A DNA stretch of 64,000 bases from Flavobacterium sp. (GCA_021740105.1 JAIPAM010000010.1:1-64000), one strand, 5' to 3'. Shown: positions 37,975 to 55,011, numbered from the stretch's first letter. Notes: generated by a model from the sequence alone, not told the origin. A program made the numbers and translations.

Positions 37975-39150
37975 ATGAATTATATTCTTTTTGACGGACC
38001 TGCTAGAACGGCACTATTGCCCTTTACTTATACTCGCCCAGTTGCCGATATTAGAATCGGAATTTTAACAATTCGGGAAAAATGGGAAAAACATTTGGGT
38101 TCAACCACAACTACATTAACCGAAGAATATTTATCTGATAAATATCCAATGGTGGAATTGGAAGAGAATGTGATGATTAATGCTTCCTATTTGCCAAATG
38201 AAAATTTAGTAGAGATTATATCCAATTTAAAATCCAATCAAGCGGTTTTTAAAGGAAATGCGGTAATTGCTTTTTTTACTAATGATTCTCAGGAAGAAGT
38301 CGATTTTGATCAGTATGAAATTATTGAGTTTACCGATGATTGTCTTACAGTGGAGCATACTTGGGATATTTTTGCCAAAAATGATGCAGCAATTCGGGAG
38401 GATTTTGCACTTTTAACCGAGGACAGAACTTCTCAGCGCATTTCTAAAACGGTAAATGTAATTTCACCAGAAAACATTTTTGTTGAAGAAGGTGCAAAAA
38501 TGGAATTTGTGACTCTAAATGCTTCTACGGGACCAATTTATATTGGTAAAAATGCCGAGATAATGGAAGGTTCTGTAATTCGTGGTCCATTTGCATTGTG
38601 CGACGAAGCGCAAGTTAAATTAGCTACCAAAGTGTATGGTGCAACTACTGTTGGTCCGCATTGCAGAATAGGTGGTGAAATCAATAATTCGGTTTTATTT
38701 GGATATTCAAACAAAGGGCATGATGGGTTTTTAGGAAATTCAGTTTTGGGAGAATGGTGTAATATTGGAGCCGATTCTAATAATTCCAATATGAAAAATA
38801 ATTATGAAGAGGTTAAATTGTGGAGTTTTGAAACCGAGAGTTTCGCTAAAACAGGATTGCAATTTTGCGGATTGATGATGGGAGATCACAGTAAATGTGG
38901 AATAAATACGATGTTTAATACAGGAACGGTTGTGGGCGTTAGCGCCAATATTTTTGGTAGTGGTTTTCCTAGAAATTTTGTTCCTAGTTTTTCTTGGGGC
39001 GGCGCATCAGGATTTGTAACTTATCAAACCCACAAAGCCTTTGAGGTTGCAAAAAAAGCGATGATCAGAAGACAAGTTGAATTTACCGATCAAGATAAAG
39101 CTATTTTAGAACACGTTTTTGAACTATCGAAAAAGTGGAGAAATGAATAG
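37975..39150 (+). CDS. GlmU family (sugar-nucleotidyltransferase/LbH acyltransferase-like) protein
   Basis: 'YILFDGPARTALLPFTYTRPVADIRIGILTIREKWE'; C-terminal left-handed beta-helix hexapeptides. Confidence 0.88.
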   Translation: MNYILFDGPARTALLPFTYTRPVADIRIGILTIREKWEKHLGSTTTTLTEEYLSDKYPMVELEENVMINASYLPNENLVEIISNLKSNQAVFKGNAVIAFFTNDSQEEVDFDQYEIIEFTDDCLTVEHTWDIFAKNDAAIREDFALLTEDRTSQRISKTVNVISPENIFVEEGAKMEFVTLNASTGPIYIGKNAEIMEGSVIRGPFALCDEAQVKLATKVYGATTVGPHCRIGGEINNSVLFGYSNKGHDGFLGNSVLGEWCNIGADSNNSNMKNNYEEVKLWSFETESFAKTGLQFCGLMMGDHSKCGINTMFNTGTVVGVSANIFGSGFPRNFVPSFSWGGASGFVTYQTHKAFEVAKKAMIRRQVEFTDQDKAILEHVFELSKKWRNE

Positions 39151-39168
39151 TTATATTTAAATATACTT

Positions 39169-40503
39169 ATGACAGATAGAAAAAAAGTTGCTTTTTACAC
39201 CTTGGGTTGCAAACTCAATTTTTCGGAAACTTCTACAATTGCTAGAAATTTCACGGAGGAGGGTTTTGACCGTGTCGATTTTGAAGAAGTTGCGGATATT
39301 TATGTGATAAATACGTGTTCGGTGACGGAAAATGCCGACAAGCAATTCAAGCAGGTGGTACGAAAAGCGATGAAATTGAATGACAAAGCTTTTGTTGCGG
39401 CGGTGGGTTGTTATGCACAATTGAAGCCCGAAGAATTGGCAAATGTAGATGGTGTGGATTTGGTTTTAGGGGCTACAGAAAAGTTTAAAATCACCGATTA
39501 CATTAATGATTTGTCCAAAAATGACATGGGCGAGGTTCATTCTTGTGAGATTTCTGAAGCCGATTTTTACGTTGGAAGTTACTCGATTGGAGATAGAACT
39601 CGGGCGTTTTTAAAGGTGCAAGACGGTTGTGATTATAAATGTACGTATTGTACAATTCCTTTAGCACGCGGTATTTCTAGAAGTGATGCCTTGGAAAATG
39701 TGTTAAAAAATGCTAAGGAAATATCGGAGCAAAACATCAAGGAAATTGTTTTGACTGGGGTTAATATTGGTGATTATGGAAAAGGAGAGTTCGGGAATAA
39801 AAAACACGAGCATACCTTTTTGGAATTGGTTCAAGAATTGGATAAAGTAGATGGAATTGAGCGATTGCGAATTTCGTCGATTGAACCTAATTTATTGAAA
39901 AATGAAACAATTGAATTTGTTTCTAAGAGTCGCACTTTTGTTCCGCATTTTCATATTCCATTGCAATCGGGGAGTAATGAAATTTTGAAATTAATGAAGC
40001 GTCGATACTTGAGAGAAGTTTATACCGAGCGCGTAAATAAAATTCGAGAAGTGATGCCTCACGCTTGTATTGGTGTGGATGTTATTGTTGGATTCCCTGG
40101 TGAAACCGACGAACATTTTTTGGAAACTTATCATTTTTTAAATGATTTAGACATTTCCTATTTGCACGTATTTACCTATTCAGAGCGTGACAATACCGAA
40201 GCGGCAACTATGCCAGGTGTTGTTCCTGCAACTGTTCGTGCGAAAAGAAGTAAGATGTTACGTGGATTATCAGTTAAAAAACGCCGAGCTTTTTATGAAA
40301 GCCAACTAGGATCGGATCGAATTGTATTGTTTGAAAGTGAAAATAAAGAAGGATACATTCACGGATTTACAGAAAACTATGTAAAGGTAAAAACGCCTTG
40401 GAATCCGGAATTAGTGAATACATTACATCCTATAAATCTAACCAAAATAGATGAAGATGGTAGCGTTAGAATGGAGTTTATGAACGCTTCAATTACAACT
40501 TAA
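39169..40503 (+). CDS. mtaB: tRNA (N6-L-threonylcarbamoyladenosine(37)-C2)-methylthiotransferase
   Basis: 'KVAFYTLGCKLNFSETSTIAR', radical SAM 'CDYKCTYCTIPLARG', 'PLQSGSNEILKLMKRRY'. Confidence 0.95.
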   Translation: MTDRKKVAFYTLGCKLNFSETSTIARNFTEEGFDRVDFEEVADIYVINTCSVTENADKQFKQVVRKAMKLNDKAFVAAVGCYAQLKPEELANVDGVDLVLGATEKFKITDYINDLSKNDMGEVHSCEISEADFYVGSYSIGDRTRAFLKVQDGCDYKCTYCTIPLARGISRSDALENVLKNAKEISEQNIKEIVLTGVNIGDYGKGEFGNKKHEHTFLELVQELDKVDGIERLRISSIEPNLLKNETIEFVSKSRTFVPHFHIPLQSGSNEILKLMKRRYLREVYTERVNKIREVMPHACIGVDVIVGFPGETDEHFLETYHFLNDLDISYLHVFTYSERDNTEAATMPGVVPATVRAKRSKMLRGLSVKKRRAFYESQLGSDRIVLFESENKEGYIHGFTENYVKVKTPWNPELVNTLHPINLTKIDEDGSVRMEFMNASITT

Positions 40504-49451: not shown

Positions 49452-49459
49452 TATATTTG
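49452..49459 (+). promoter_or_regulatory. Candidate -7 element TATATTTG of the surface-protein cluster, overlapped by palindrome GTGAAT-T-ATTCAC (49459-49471)
   Basis: Matches Bacteroidota TAnnTTTG; 28 nt upstream of the first start codon. Confidence 0.55.
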
Positions 49460-49487
49460 TGAATTATTCACATAAAATTAACTTGCT

Positions 49488-49961
49488 TTGAAAATAATTT
49501 TATTTTTATTAGTTACATTCACAGGGTTTTCCCAAACTTTACACCATCAGATGTTGTCTTCACAAGGAACTTCTACTACAGTTGGTGGTTTGAAAGTTTC
49601 TCAAACCATTGGACAGCAAAGTGTTATTGGAAATTACAGAGGAACTGACGTAACGGTTGGTCAAGGTTTTCAGCAAAGTCATTTAATGAAAACTGTAAAG
49701 GCTCCTATCATAACAGTGGTTACGACTACTTATCCAAATCCATTTATTGATCAAATCAATTTTGAGTTTTCGTCATTAGTTACCGGCCCAATTAAATTCT
49801 CTTTATATGATGTTATGGGTCGTTTAGTTGCCTCTGAGGAGAAGCTGGCTATTGATACACTATTAACTATTAACGAACTCTTTTTAGCAGAGGGACAATA
49901 TTTCGTTAAGCTAACTGCAAAAAATTACAATTATTCTACTAATTTATTAAAAACAAAATGA
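49488..49961 (+). CDS. Short exported T9SS type A sorting-domain protein
   Basis: TTG start then signal peptide KIILFLLVTFTGFSQ; 'TVGGLKVSQTIGQQSVIGNY…VGQGFQQS'; CTD 'TTYPNPFIDQINFEFSS…YDVMGRLV…LAEGQYFVKLTAKN'. Confidence 0.85.
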   Translation: MKIILFLLVTFTGFSQTLHHQMLSSQGTSTTVGGLKVSQTIGQQSVIGNYRGTDVTVGQGFQQSHLMKTVKAPIITVVTTTYPNPFIDQINFEFSSLVTGPIKFSLYDVMGRLVASEEKLAIDTLLTINELFLAEGQYFVKLTAKNYNYSTNLLKTK

Positions 49962-50575
49962 GAAAATTCTACCTATTATTAGTTGTTCTTTTGGCTTTAA
50001 CCAATTCTTATTCACAAGAAGTTTATTTCTTAACGGGAACCAATATCACCAAATATAATTTTACTAGTCAAGCAGAGCCCATGGCTACGCCACTTCAAGC
50101 GGGAACAGGGTCTTTCTATGAAATAGGATATGATTTTTCATTAAATAGTGATGCCTTGTCTTACTCAGGAGCAATAACTCTAAACGATTACAATGCATTA
50201 GCAGGTACCCCAGCGAATTCTTACAGCTGGAATACCAAATATGCTGGAGCTCAAAGTTCCTTAAATTATGTTCATAAAATCACTAAAAGATTCAAATTGG
50301 GTGTTAGAGCTGGATTGAACCTATCGAAAATGATTTATGGAAAGCAAAATCTTAATGGTGAGATTTTGGATTTAACAGATCAAAAAGAATTTTCTGGACT
50401 TTATTTTTCATATTTCGGTGGCGCAAGTGCCAACTATAAGTTAAATGATTCAGGTTATTTAAGCATCGGTTATGGTTTTGGTAATGGATTAAACACAGCC
50501 AACAGTACTCAAGAAAAAGTTATATTCAATAATTCACAAATACAATTTGGTATTCACTTCAATATCAATAAATAA
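49958..50575 (+). CDS. Exported outer-membrane beta-barrel protein
   Basis: Signal peptide 'MRKFYLLLVVLLALTNSYSQ'; beta-strand pattern ending 'IQFGIHFNINK'; ATGA overlap with the upstream gene. Confidence 0.75.
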   Translation: MRKFYLLLVVLLALTNSYSQEVYFLTGTNITKYNFTSQAEPMATPLQAGTGSFYEIGYDFSLNSDALSYSGAITLNDYNALAGTPANSYSWNTKYAGAQSSLNYVHKITKRFKLGVRAGLNLSKMIYGKQNLNGEILDLTDQKEFSGLYFSYFGGASANYKLNDSGYLSIGYGFGNGLNTANSTQEKVIFNNSQIQFGIHFNINK

Positions 50576-50583
50576 TTAGCAAC

Positions 50584-52821
50584 ATGAAAAAGATAACATT
50601 ACTTTTATTATTATTCGTTTCAACAGCATTTTATGCTCAATCTACTGGCATTAGCTATCAGGCTATTATTTATAATCCAAATGGAGAAGTAATACCAGGT
50701 TATAACAATACCAATTCACCATTGGCAAATAAGAACATTTGTCTACAATTTACAATCATTGACAGTGCTTCTTTAACAGAATACCAAGAGAAAATTACGA
50801 TTACCACCGATGAATATGGTATGGTTAACACCGTAATTGGAACTGGAATCCAAACTGGAGGTTATGCTACCTCATTTGCTAATGTTAATTGGAGCTTACC
50901 TTCAAAAAGATTGAAAGTAGGATTAGATAAGTTCGCACTTTGTACGAACTTCACAGAAATTAGTAACCAATTGTTCACCTCAGTACCGTATGCCTTTGCA
51001 GCAAATAGCGCTGAGAATGTTACTGGTGTAGTTCAAATACGTAATGGAGGAACTGGTGCAACAACAGTACTTGGAGCAAAAACCAACTTGGGATTAGAAA
51101 ACGTAGACAATACTCGTGATATCAATAAACCAATAAGTATAGCAACTCAAGCGGCATTAAACCTAAAAGAAGATTTGTCTAATAAATCGATTAGCGTTGC
51201 CACTGACGGAACTTCAAATACGAAATACCCTTCAGTAAAAGCGGTAAAAGATTTTGTAGATGCAGGAACAACAGTTGTAAATGCATCTTTAAACCTAAAA
51301 GAGGATTTAGTAAATAAATCTACAAACGTTACTGCTGATGGGGCTTCTAATACCAAATATCCAACAGTAAAAGCAATAAAAGATTATGTAGATGCTGGAG
51401 TTAATTCAGGTGGAACAGGTTTATCAAACGAAGCAACCATTAGAGCTGCAGCAGATTTGGTTTTGACGAATAACTTATTTACAGAAATTACCAATAGAAC
51501 TAACGCCGATTTATTAAAAGAAGATTTAGCAAACAAATCTTTAAATGTAAATACGGATGCTGCTTCAAACACAAAATACCCATCAGTTAGAGCAATTAAA
51601 TCTTATGTTGATGCTGCAGATGCGAATTTAACTACCAATCTAAATGCTGAAATTGCTGCAAGAATAGCTGGCGATAACTCTTTAACATTTAATTTATCAG
51701 CTGAAGTAACTAGAGCAACAGCAATTGATAATACTTTAACTAATAACTTATTACAAGAATTAATTAGAGCTACTGCAGCCGAAAGTACTTTGACTACTAA
51801 CTTAGCAACTGAAGTAACTCGTGCTACTGCAGCCGAAGCAACTAAAGAAAACCTGTCTAATAAGTCAACCAGTGTGACTACAGATGGAACATCAAATACA
51901 AAATATCCTTCAGTAAAAGCAGTAAAAGATTATGTAGATACTACTGTATCTTCAGCAACAACCCCAGATGCTTCTACTACTGTAAAAGGTAAAGTTCAAT
52001 TAGCAGGAGATTTAACAGGAACCGCTGCGTTACCAACTATAGCTGCCAATGCAGTTACAAGCGCGAAAATATTAGATGGAGATATTGTTGATGCTGATAT
52101 TTCAGCAACTGCAGCTATTGCAGATACTAAATTAGCTACCATTGCAACAGCTGGAAAAGTAAGCAACACCGCTACAACAGCCACTGCATTAAATACGCCA
52201 AATACAATAGTATTGAGAGATGGAACAGGAAACTTAGCGGCAGGAGCAATTACTGCAACTGGATTTGCAGGACCATTAGCAGGAAATGTTACTGGTAACC
52301 TAACAGGAAATGTTACAGGAAACGTAACAGGAAATGTTAGCGGAACGGCTGCTAACGTTACTGGTATAGTTGCGATTGCTAATGGTGGTACAGGTTCAAC
52401 AACTCAAAACTTTGTTGATATAACAACTGCACAAACCATTGCTGGTAATAAAACATTTACGGGTACTATTACTGCAGCAGATATAAATGCTGGAGCTGTT
52501 ACGGCAAACGCCTCAATAAGTTCTGAAATTACAGCAAACTTTACAATTAGTAATGCTAACGCCAATGATTATAAAGGTAAAGTTTTGATTTGTAATCCAA
52601 CGAGTCAAATTACAATTACGTTTAGCAGTGATTTGCCAGTAGGTTTTAACTGTATGGTACTTCAAAAGAGTGTAGATGCAAACAAAATAAATTTTGCAGC
52701 TGGTTCAGGTGTTCAATTAAAAAACAGAAACAATTATACTGCAACAGCAGGTAATTATGCTATAGCTACTATTGTAAATATTGGTGGTGGTATTATAGTT
52801 ACTGCTGGAGATATGCAGTAA
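50584..52821 (+). CDS. Exported modular fibre-like protein (tail-fibre-type repeats)
   Basis: Four 'LKEDLxNKSxxVxTDgxSNTKYPSVxAxKxYVDA' modules, four 18-aa 'LTxNLxxEvxRAtAxxxt' tandem repeats, 'GNVTGNLTGNVTGNVTGNVSG' run, 'IANGGTGSTTQ' motif. Confidence 0.82.
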   Translation: MKKITLLLLLFVSTAFYAQSTGISYQAIIYNPNGEVIPGYNNTNSPLANKNICLQFTIIDSASLTEYQEKITITTDEYGMVNTVIGTGIQTGGYATSFANVNWSLPSKRLKVGLDKFALCTNFTEISNQLFTSVPYAFAANSAENVTGVVQIRNGGTGATTVLGAKTNLGLENVDNTRDINKPISIATQAALNLKEDLSNKSISVATDGTSNTKYPSVKAVKDFVDAGTTVVNASLNLKEDLVNKSTNVTADGASNTKYPTVKAIKDYVDAGVNSGGTGLSNEATIRAAADLVLTNNLFTEITNRTNADLLKEDLANKSLNVNTDAASNTKYPSVRAIKSYVDAADANLTTNLNAEIAARIAGDNSLTFNLSAEVTRATAIDNTLTNNLLQELIRATAAESTLTTNLATEVTRATAAEATKENLSNKSTSVTTDGTSNTKYPSVKAVKDYVDTTVSSATTPDASTTVKGKVQLAGDLTGTAALPTIAANAVTSAKILDGDIVDADISATAAIADTKLATIATAGKVSNTATTATALNTPNTIVLRDGTGNLAAGAITATGFAGPLAGNVTGNLTGNVTGNVTGNVSGTAANVTGIVAIANGGTGSTTQNFVDITTAQTIAGNKTFTGTITAADINAGAVTANASISSEITANFTISNANANDYKGKVLICNPTSQITITFSSDLPVGFNCMVLQKSVDANKINFAAGSGVQLKNRNNYTATAGNYAIATIVNIGGGIIVTAGDMQ
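51628..51843 (+). repeat. Four tandem 54-bp/18-aa repeats
   Basis: LTTNLNAEIAARIAGDNS / LTFNLSAEVTRATAIDNT / LTNNLLQELIRATAAEST / LTTNLATEVTRATAAEAT. Confidence 0.9.
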
Positions 52822-52857
52822 TATGAATTATATTAAACTCTTTAAAATCCCTCAAAA

Positions 52858-54309
52858 ATAAAAAAATTATTATTAGTTACATTTCTATTCTTGGCTTTAA
52901 GCTTTCAAAGTCAAGCAAATAATTTGGTAGTTGGTACTCCAACAATTAGTGGAAGCACTGTAACATTTACTATTAAATGGGACAACAGTTGGTATGTTAC
53001 CACTGGTCCATCAAATTGGGATGCAGTTTGGATTTTTGTTAAAAGACAATCTTGCGTTAGTGGAGCTATTAGCCCTTGGTTGCATGCTCAATTATCACCA
53101 ACTGGTCAGTCTGTGACTGGTTCAATACTTCAGGTAGATACTGTTTCAGATAATGCTGGAGTTTTTATTAGAAGATCGGCATCTGGAATTGGAAATATTA
53201 CTCAAGAAACCATAACATTAACTTTAGCTAGCCCAGTTGGCGGAGATAATATTGGGGTGTTTGGTATGGAAATGGTGAATGTACCAGAAGGTCAATTTTA
53301 CATCGGTGACGGAGGATATAATAGTTATCAAGTGTTTGGTGATGCTACTAATCAACCTGTTCAAATTACAGCAGCAACTACTAGTTTAACAAAAGCTCAA
53401 TATGGTAATCAACAGCAATTAGGATCTTCGGTAACATTACCAAGTACTTATCCTTTTGGTTACAGTCGTTTTTATTGTATGAAATATGAAATTACGTGTG
53501 CTCAATATGTGGCATTTTTGAACTCACTGAGCTACGAACAACAACTTCGTAAGCAACAAGATATGAATTTTAACACTACTCCACCAACTTCTCCGGCAGG
53601 AACAGCATTTATGAATAGTTGGAATTATAGAATAGAAATTAAAACTCCAGGAGTATCAACTACCACATTAACTCCTGCTGTTTATGCTTGCGAGGCAAAT
53701 AACAATGGTGTTTACGATGAAGACTGTGATGGTTTAGGACTTCCTGTTTCATTAAGACAAGAGCATTGGTTATCCTATTTGGAATGGGCGGCTTTAAGAC
53801 CAATGTCTGAATTTGAATATGAAAAAGCTTGTAGAGGTCCACTTGCGCCTGTTAGAGGAGAATATTCATGGGGAACTACGGATATTTTTCAAATGCAATT
53901 TACCAATGCAAATTGGGGCTGTTCTACAGATATTCAAACCGTTTTTGCTTTAGGCCTTTGTAATTGTTGGACAGGACGTATGTATAGAGCTGGTAGTTCT
54001 GCTTCTTCAAATACCGATAGAGTTCATGCTGGAGCTACTTATTATGGTATAGCTGATATGACAGGTGGTACTTATGAGCGTAGTGTAGGAGGTTGGAATT
54101 ATGATTATTCTACTTTTACTACTGCTAATGGAGATGGAAATATCAATGCGGATGGTACTTGTGGTAATACAATTTGGAACAATATGCAATATTGGAATAG
54201 AGGTGGTTCTGTACAAAATCCTAACTCTGCACAAGTTTCATCTAGAAATTATGGAAATGATGCAAGTTATGGTCAAGGTCAAGCTGGTAGAGGTGTTAGA
54301 TCTTATTAA
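52858..54309 (+). CDS. Exported formylglycine-generating-enzyme (SUMF1/FGE-sulfatase) family protein; start codon abnormal
   Basis: 'GMEMVNVPEGQFYIGDGGYNS', 'YCMKYEITCAQYVAFLNSL', 'LRPMSEFEYEKACRGP', 'WNRGGSVQNPNSAQVSSRNYGNDASYGQGQAGRGVRSY'. Reading frame encodes signal peptide (I)KKLLLVTFLFLALSFQSQA from 52858, but codon 1 is ATA; first usable near-start in the track is TTG 52891. Confidence 0.8.
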   Translation: MKKLLLVTFLFLALSFQSQANNLVVGTPTISGSTVTFTIKWDNSWYVTTGPSNWDAVWIFVKRQSCVSGAISPWLHAQLSPTGQSVTGSILQVDTVSDNAGVFIRRSASGIGNITQETITLTLASPVGGDNIGVFGMEMVNVPEGQFYIGDGGYNSYQVFGDATNQPVQITAATTSLTKAQYGNQQQLGSSVTLPSTYPFGYSRFYCMKYEITCAQYVAFLNSLSYEQQLRKQQDMNFNTTPPTSPAGTAFMNSWNYRIEIKTPGVSTTTLTPAVYACEANNNGVYDEDCDGLGLPVSLRQEHWLSYLEWAALRPMSEFEYEKACRGPLAPVRGEYSWGTTDIFQMQFTNANWGCSTDIQTVFALGLCNCWTGRMYRAGSSASSNTDRVHAGATYYGIADMTGGTYERSVGGWNYDYSTFTTANGDGNINADGTCGNTIWNNMQYWNRGGSVQNPNSAQVSSRNYGNDASYGQGQAGRGVRSY

Positions 54310-54319
54310 TTTTATTTAA

Positions 54320-54826
54320 GTGTTAAAAAAAGTAATAATTATAGTCCTATTTTGTTTAGTACAAAATACTTTTGGACAAATTGTGCTTCCTTCTATGCGT
54401 GGGGTATTCAATTCAAAAATACCTTCTACTATGTTTTCAGGAGGAAAAGGATATGGTTCTTTTCAGCAAAGTTTGTCGCAAAACGTTTGTCCTCCTCAAA
54501 TTGTTGAGTCCATTTTTTATGGAGGAATCGGATATGGTGATCAGCAAAAAATTATAGTACAAAATTTTTGTACTCCTGTATTTGTTGAGTCTATTTTTTA
54601 TGGAGGAATCGGATATGGTGATCAGCAAAAAGTAATAGTTCAAAATGTTTGTACTCCTGTAGCAGTTGAATCTATTTTTAATGGTGGTATTGGTTATGGA
54701 GACCAACAAAAAATAGCAATTCAAAGTGTTTGTTTAGCTCCAGCTGTAGAATCTATTTTTAGTGGTGGAACAGGTTATGGAGACCAACAAAAAATAGTAA
54801 TTCAAACACCTTGTTATCAGTTATAG
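54320..54826 (+). CDS. Exported protein of five 27-aa single-cysteine repeats
   Basis: GTG start, signal peptide; VESIFxGGxGYGDQQKxxxQxxCxPx units. Confidence 0.82.
   Translation: MLKKVIIIVLFCLVQNTFGQIVLPSMRGVFNSKIPSTMFSGGKGYGSFQQSLSQNVCPPQIVESIFYGGIGYGDQQKIIVQNFCTPVFVESIFYGGIGYGDQQKVIVQNVCTPVAVESIFNGGIGYGDQQKIAIQSVCLAPAVESIFSGGTGYGDQQKIVIQTPCYQL
54422..54823 (+). repeat. Five 81-bp coding repeats (first degenerate)
   Basis: Units at 54422, 54503, 54584, 54665, 54746; units 2 and 3 nearly identical at DNA level. Confidence 0.9.
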
Positions 54827-54841
54827 TAAGTAAGATAAACT

Positions 54842-54873
54842 AAATCTCAATGCTTAAGCATTGGGATTTTTTT
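54842..54873 (+). terminator. Intrinsic terminator closing the cluster
   Basis: aaatctcaatgc-ttaa-gcattgggattttttt. Confidence 0.85.
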
Positions 54874-55011
54874 TAAATACCCATATTTTTTTATTGTATT
54901 TGTAAATTTAACTTTTATTATAAAATTACTTTAACGTTTGTTGATTTTCAATTATATCTAATTTTATATTTTACTTCAGAACTTTATAAGTAATTTTATA
55001 AAAAAATAATC

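Follow-up and report, generated by a model that had tools for sequence, protein, structure and literature searches.

A 64,000-nucleotide stretch of a Flavobacterium sp. assembly (GCA_021740105.1, JAIPAM010000010.1:1-64000; hereafter the window), from a Flavobacterium-type host genome of 2.19 Mb, contains a cassette of five co-directional genes, here named g1 to g5, which the present study examined as a candidate surface fibre with a lectin-like head. All features lie on the + strand, and all five open reading frames (ORFs) were found where the original prediction had placed them, with junctions of −4 bases between g1 and g2, 8 between g2 and g3, 36 between g3 and g4, and 10 between g4 and g5. 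The first gene, g1 (49488..49961, TTG start), encodes a short exported protein with a type A C-terminal sorting domain of the type IX secretion system (T9SS) at residues 82-150 (Por_Secre_tail 1.1e-9; TIGR04183), and g2 (49958..50575) encodes a 205-residue exported protein with the sequence pattern of an outer-membrane beta-barrel. The product of g3 (50584..52821) is a 745-residue protein of trimeric-fibre type (DUF5907 1e-11; phrog_35419 tail fibre 4.6e-7) in which we distinguish an N-domain (g3N; residues 1-142, 50584..51009), the probable anchor end, a variable shaft (residues 143-636, 51010..52491) with four NKS..TDG.SNTKYPSVKAVKDYVD repeats, and a C-terminal tip (g3C; residues 637-745, 52492..52818), the probable head-docking end. 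Downstream, g4 (52858..54309) encodes an exported FGE-fold protein with an in-frame ATA at the start position and a variable patch towards its C-terminus (residues 441-476, 54178..54285), and g5 (54320..54826, GTG start) an exported 168-residue protein in which tandem-repeat analysis and alignment place about four 81-bp (27-residue) GGxGxG...C repeats with one Cys each. The family matches and the g5 repeats bear out the description, given in the original prediction, of a short T9SS protein, a tail-fibre-like g3 (DUF5907, PHROGs), an FGE-family g4, and a Cys-repeat g5.

The block was also expected to be bounded by a promoter and an intrinsic terminator. A candidate Bacteroidota-type promoter box, TATATTTG, can be read at 49452..49459 but is weak evidence, since the window holds 120 copies of the TANNTTTG pattern where 114 would be expected. 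The terminator (54842..54874) has a good 12-pair hairpin at 54842-54869 followed by a T run; the hairpin is convincing by eye, and the hairpin scan overall yields no more sites than shuffles do. Signal peptides had been assigned to every product, which holds for g1, g2, g3, and g5, whose cleavage sites conform, on reading of the sequence, to the Bacteroidota Q-rule (PMC5837995), but for g4 only if translation begins at the ATA (52858-52860). Relatives have ATG at the g4 start, and TTG 52891, the first ordinary start of g4 here, would remove most of the signal peptide; the ATA may be a genuine rare start, a mutated start codon, or a mistake in the assembly.

It is nearly certain that the cassette is a real unit. 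The order g1-g2-g3-g4-g5 recurs in seven complete loci, six from Flavobacterium and one from a Crocinitomicaceae metagenome-assembled genome (the window, L013, L015, L016, L019, L210, and L211). A search of GTDB contigs with g4 returned ten relatives at 54-83% identity, all ten with the g3 tip upstream of g4 and g5 downstream of it. Of these, L013, L015, L016, and L019 have g1 and g2 in position as well; the contig ends before the g1-g2 region in L010, L011, L012, and L018; and L014 and L017 lack g2 and have a g1 that differs. The g3 tip alone was then used prospectively as the query against 250 genomes of the genus, four of which gave strong matches, each with g4-g5 directly downstream. The strong new matches among them, G873 and G962 (L210 and L211), hold all five genes, and G039 (the genome of L011) holds g3-g4-g5 with the upstream side cut off; weak tip matches in G611, G941, and G1021 lack g4 and g5. 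Co-occurrence and gene order, which the original prediction had proposed to check, extend well beyond close strains, the prospective tip-only search (G873, G962) included. The sampled members of the window's genus and the named cassette matches are Flavobacterium. In G873 the genes flanking the cassette are those that flank it in the window (ccs on one side; GPx, GNAT, and menD on the other), and from these shared neighbours and the four strong matches in 250 genomes we conclude that the cassette is an old chromosomal unit of patchy presence. An AraC-type regulator lies upstream of the cassette in G873 and none in the window; divergent AraC-type regulators were seen upstream in five Flavobacterium loci, at L210:2955-4130, L211:2920-4077, L015:2752-3957, L016:4085-5263, and L019:5304-6512. 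Just upstream of the cassette in L016 (L016:1-4042) are a large secreted protein and then, by eye, a PorP/SprF-type-looking protein. No account of either the cassette or the g4-g5 pair turned up in searches of open-access papers.

The three regions of g3 are conserved to different degrees: among the seven complete proteins, median pairwise identity is 58% in the N-domain, falls to 39% in the shaft, and rises to 79% over the C-terminal 109 residues. The protein ranges from 431 to 1536 residues in length when L014 and L017 are counted in. In the window the shaft repeats start at residues 213, 257, 330, and 439, and residues 143-212 are up to 71% identical to phage tail proteins; elsewhere the shaft is built of Collagen (L014, L017), YadA_head (L016, L019), or BppL_N modules (L014), or of stretches resembling virion proteins (L015), in place of the tail-fibre repeats of the window. 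Collagen, YadA_head, BppL_N, and tail-fibre modules are all modules of trimeric fibres. Judged by these matches, g3 is very likely a fibre protein, and it would probably form a trimer. Parts of the shaft match proteins of phage tails and virions (best 2.3e-63, in L015), as they would if the cassette were a captured phage tail-fibre region or a piece of a tailocin or contractile injection system, but we regard such an origin as very improbable: Sec signal peptides are found on all products (that of g4 with the ATA start), g4 has no match in phages, viral contigs, or viral structures, and the cassette sits among chromosomal housekeeping genes at a conserved site, from ccs to GPx and menD. A phage origin of the head in particular was rejected on the lack of g4 matches in these three sets.

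Fibres that share g3N but occur elsewhere end in matches to Lcl_C, Fib_succ_major, or Peptidase_S74, the Lcl_C and Fib_succ_major matches being mostly near or below the Pfam cut-off and occurring in fibres that have g1 as a neighbour. A family search found no Lcl_C match in the window's g3, and strong g3C matches occur solely at loci where g4-g5 come next. We read these patterns as one anchor-and-shaft scheme with exchangeable heads, in which the head of the window's fibre would be encoded in trans. Given the fused lectin-like heads on many other g3N fibres, the window's fibre would resemble a lollipop adhesin of the Lcl type with its head supplied by a separate gene.

The candidate head, g4, was modelled with AlphaFold2 from an alignment of 71 sequences (predicted local distance difference test, pLDDT, 88.8; predicted template modelling score, pTM, 0.91), and the model comprises a beta-sandwich N-domain (about residues 21-133) and an FGE-like domain (about 138-483). 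The best Foldseek hit to this model is FGE (6xtp, 1.2e-6), EgtB (1.3e-5) is also found, and no viral structure is matched, and the sequence agrees (FGE-sulfatase in Pfam, 2.8e-7; SUMF1 by profile, 1.4e-10). The fold, together with the conserved pairing of g4 and g5, raises the explanation that g4, as a modifying enzyme of FGE or similar type, acts on the Cys-rich g5 repeats to mature them, with the fibre incidental; 59 of the 189 Cys residues in g5 repeat regions precede x-Pro, as in the FGE motif CxPxR. The copper-binding catalytic Cys pair of FGE, which we take to sit after the RGGS motif, has no counterpart here: across the 71 g4 proteins there is no conserved Cys after the RGG motif, within the last 43 columns, and the residues there are variable, so that the canonical FGE reaction is unlikely for g4. 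Moreover, CxPxR is found in 0 of 41 g5 repeat regions (g5 being the only substrate searched), the pairing persists even though 14 of these 41 regions hold at most one Cys, and no sulfatase is associated. We consider a maturing enzyme improbable and rejected the specific case of an FGE acting on g5, for want of a catalytic Cys in g4 and of CxPxR in g5; a non-enzymatic binding head is likely.

The C-terminal patch of g4 changes fast in two pairs of relatives. Between L010 and L011 it has 13 nonsynonymous and 8 synonymous codons, against 14 and 50 elsewhere in the gene (Fisher p 0.001), and thus holds 13 of the 27 nonsynonymous codons of g4; between L012 and L013 the same patch is where nonsynonymous divergence (pN) peaks in g4. 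The first 200 codons of g4 are nearly identical between L010 and L011 and the remainder diverged, a pattern resembling recombination within g4. Lectin folds of the FGE type are known to be targeted by diversity-generating retroelements (DGRs), and an analogy to these had been drawn in the original prediction; a fast patch is what would be seen if the g4 C-terminus were diversified by reverse transcription. However, the genome contains no RVT_1 reverse transcriptase and no template repeat, and the changes are not confined to A positions (e.g., GGT to TCT, GCA to TTT). The analogy is not sustained, a DGR target is an extremely improbable explanation of the patch, and this mechanism was rejected for the host genome.

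The association between g4 and g5 extends far beyond the cassette. Relatives of g4 (E up to 1e-20) are present in 72 of 395 Bacteroidia genomes, and a match to the g5 model lies directly downstream in 40 of 77 g4 loci, compared with 1 of 849 other ORFs and 1 of 53 genes upstream of g4, this last one following a further g4. At the level of whole genomes, 16 of 40 that have g4 also have g5, against 0 of 40 that lack g4 (p 5e-6), and g5 is nearly always beside g4; 32 g5-type proteins are left once the cassette clade is excluded. Several relatives of g5 carry Por_Secre_tail with the g5 repeats at their N-terminus, and in L020 and L119 the repeats stand ahead of Ig_7/PKD stalks in T9SS-sorted proteins; the repeat Cys is not universal among them. 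At L063:10743-19001, the gene directly after g4 encodes a protein with g5 repeats that exceeds 2750 residues. Regulators upstream of g4-g5 loci vary and include AraC types (L015, L016, L019, L210, L211), hybrid sensors, LytTR pairs, and an NtrC type, the types being read from the sequence in loci without a family scan. A tentative generalization, to which we give somewhat less than even weight, is that g4-g5 is an undescribed, class-wide, two-part head, consisting of an FGE-fold lectin-like protein and a GG-repeat adaptor, that is mounted in trans on stalks that vary by lineage (Ig/PKD stalks anchored by the T9SS in some, a phage-tail-like trimeric fibre here), with heads exchanged between lineages independently of the anchor genes.

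The cassette is modular, with g1 and g3 forming one module and g4 and g5 the other, and the first of these is also widespread. We found g3N in 155 of 247 Bacteroidia genomes, at up to 17 copies per genome, and a g1-type T9SS cargo gene is its neighbour in 14 of the 20 loci fetched; several g3N fibres have no adjoining g1 (L191, L193, L197, L202, L204). The g2 gene is kept at the same position in L013, L015, L016, L019, L185, L186, L187, L210, L211, and L213. A second g1-g2-g3N set, about 50-53% identical, occurs in the host genome itself (L185, contig C15:1-2700) and ends at the contig end; the host assembly holds a single g4. At L187:2929-8930 the g1-g2-g3N anchor is followed by a 1049-residue beta-helix protein in place of g4-g5, and at L213:5781-10963 by other secreted proteins (short fibre pieces), which suggests alternative heads behind the same anchor. 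PDB sequence searches with profiles of g3C, g5, g2, and g3N returned nothing significant.

In the g4 tree the window groups with L010-L013 (100/100) and a single Flavobacterium clade is rejected (p-AU, from the approximately unbiased test, 4e-98), while in the anchor-gene tree only the strict pair of the window and L013 is clearly rejected and a group of the window, the C15 copy, L013, and L186 is compatible. Because the g4 tree conflicts with the genus while the anchor genes reject only that pair, exchange of heads between lineages is likely but not proven.

Taken as a whole, we hold with moderate confidence that the cassette encodes a cell-surface adhesive fibre whose receptor-binding head is supplied in trans. 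Under this proposal, g3 would be a homotrimeric fibre whose conserved N-domain marks the anchor end and whose exchangeable shaft leads to a conserved tip at the C-terminus; g4 would be a non-enzymatic C-type-lectin-like head of FGE fold, and g5 a repeat adaptor that accompanies it, the two predicted to dock together on the g3 tip; and g1, as T9SS cargo, and g2, as a putative outer-membrane barrel, would stand at the anchor end and probably be needed for display. The head would bind a ligand, most likely a glycan or a cell surface, and g3-g5 would have to cross the outer membrane. The surface fibre with a lectin-like tip that was originally predicted is retained in so far as the exported cassette is conserved, g3 is of trimeric-fibre type, g4 has an FGE fold with a fast patch in the window's clade, and relatives carry a fused Lcl_C; it is to be amended in that the deepest partner of g4 is g5 rather than the fibre.

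Several observations weigh against this proposal. In most genomes g4-g5 occurs without the g3 tip, and g4 is for this reason not a dedicated fibre tip. The patch is not fast in the pairs L016/L019, L015/L017, and L068/L071, and g4 may be poorly made in the window strain owing to the ATA. The barrel assignment of g2, likewise a claim of the original prediction, accords with the sequence pattern but is unproven, as family and PDB searches matched g2 to no family or solved structure. Finally, although the host genome encodes the T9SS component SprA (2813 bits), the expected T9SS substrate is present only as g1: a family search found no T9SS sorting domain on the window's g3, g4, or g5, so that surface exposure of the fibre is a prediction and its export is the main gap in the proposal, which g1 and g2 are candidates for closing. 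The prevalence of g4-g5 without the tip could also mean that the pair is an independent surface module (e.g., one that binds nutrients or polymers under sensor control) that only happens to adjoin the fibre operon, and several loci do have two-component, LytTR, or hybrid sensor genes as neighbours, unlike the AraC-type gene of the cassette. We judge this rather unlikely, since every locus whose g4 exceeds 50% identity has the g3 tip directly upstream, g4-g5 follow directly in each of the four genomes with a strong g3C match, and no part of g3 is better conserved than the tip, which is what a docking surface would show.

The closest known counterpart of the proposed fibre is Lcl of Legionella, an exported lollipop of N-helix, collagen stalk, and DUF1566/Lcl_C head that likewise combines an anchor end, a trimeric shaft, and a C-type-lectin-like head; the head is trimeric and binds glycosaminoglycans, and homologues are reported from Bacteroidota (PMC11162425). 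In other Bacteroidia, fibres related to that of the window resemble Lcl further in their collagen shafts and C-terminal Lcl_C matches. The window's own g3 differs from Lcl in that its shaft resembles phage tail fibres and its C-terminus is another conserved domain, and here the lectin-like protein has its own gene, of the FGE family, with a repeat partner. The C-terminal domain of g4 shares fold and sequence with the FGE/SUMF1 family (PF03781, including EgtB, SUMF2, and PvdO), but g4 lacks the copper cysteines, has the added beta-sandwich N-domain, and is paired class-wide with g5, which has no formylglycine (FGly) substrate motif. Reuse of the FGE fold in a non-enzymatic role has precedents in Bacteroidota in GldK/PorK and GldJ, which are parts of the T9SS and gliding track (PMC12421860, PMC12635249); unlike these, g4 is not a lipoprotein and lies in another gene context, its similarity to PorK reaches just E 0.013, and no GldK or GldJ NCBIfam model matches it up to E 1. 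Many g5 relatives are themselves T9SS adhesins of the SprB-like, fibrillar kind with Ig_7/PKD stalks (GG repeats, a stalk in some, Por_Secre_tail), but the window's g5 is short and without stalk or sorting domain, the stalk being a separate fibre, probably trimeric. The lollipop-adhesin principle is thus already known from Lcl, and an FGE-family head encoded as a separate gene with a conserved GG-repeat partner appears to be undescribed in the open-access literature searched. Bacteroidota surfaces hold hundreds of unexplained exported proteins, and two anonymous groups among them, the fibre gene with its small T9SS cargo and the FGE-fold protein with its GG-repeat partner, become testable units. 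If the proposal is true, a lectin-like head is supplied in trans and non-enzymatic "SUMF1" annotations gain a function; the question it raises is how proteins that lack a T9SS signal arrive at the surface beside a small T9SS cargo. Away from the cassette, GC skew in the window peaks at 0.26 at positions 38001-40000, where the genes (nucleotidyltransferase-like and MtaB-like) are ordinary-looking.

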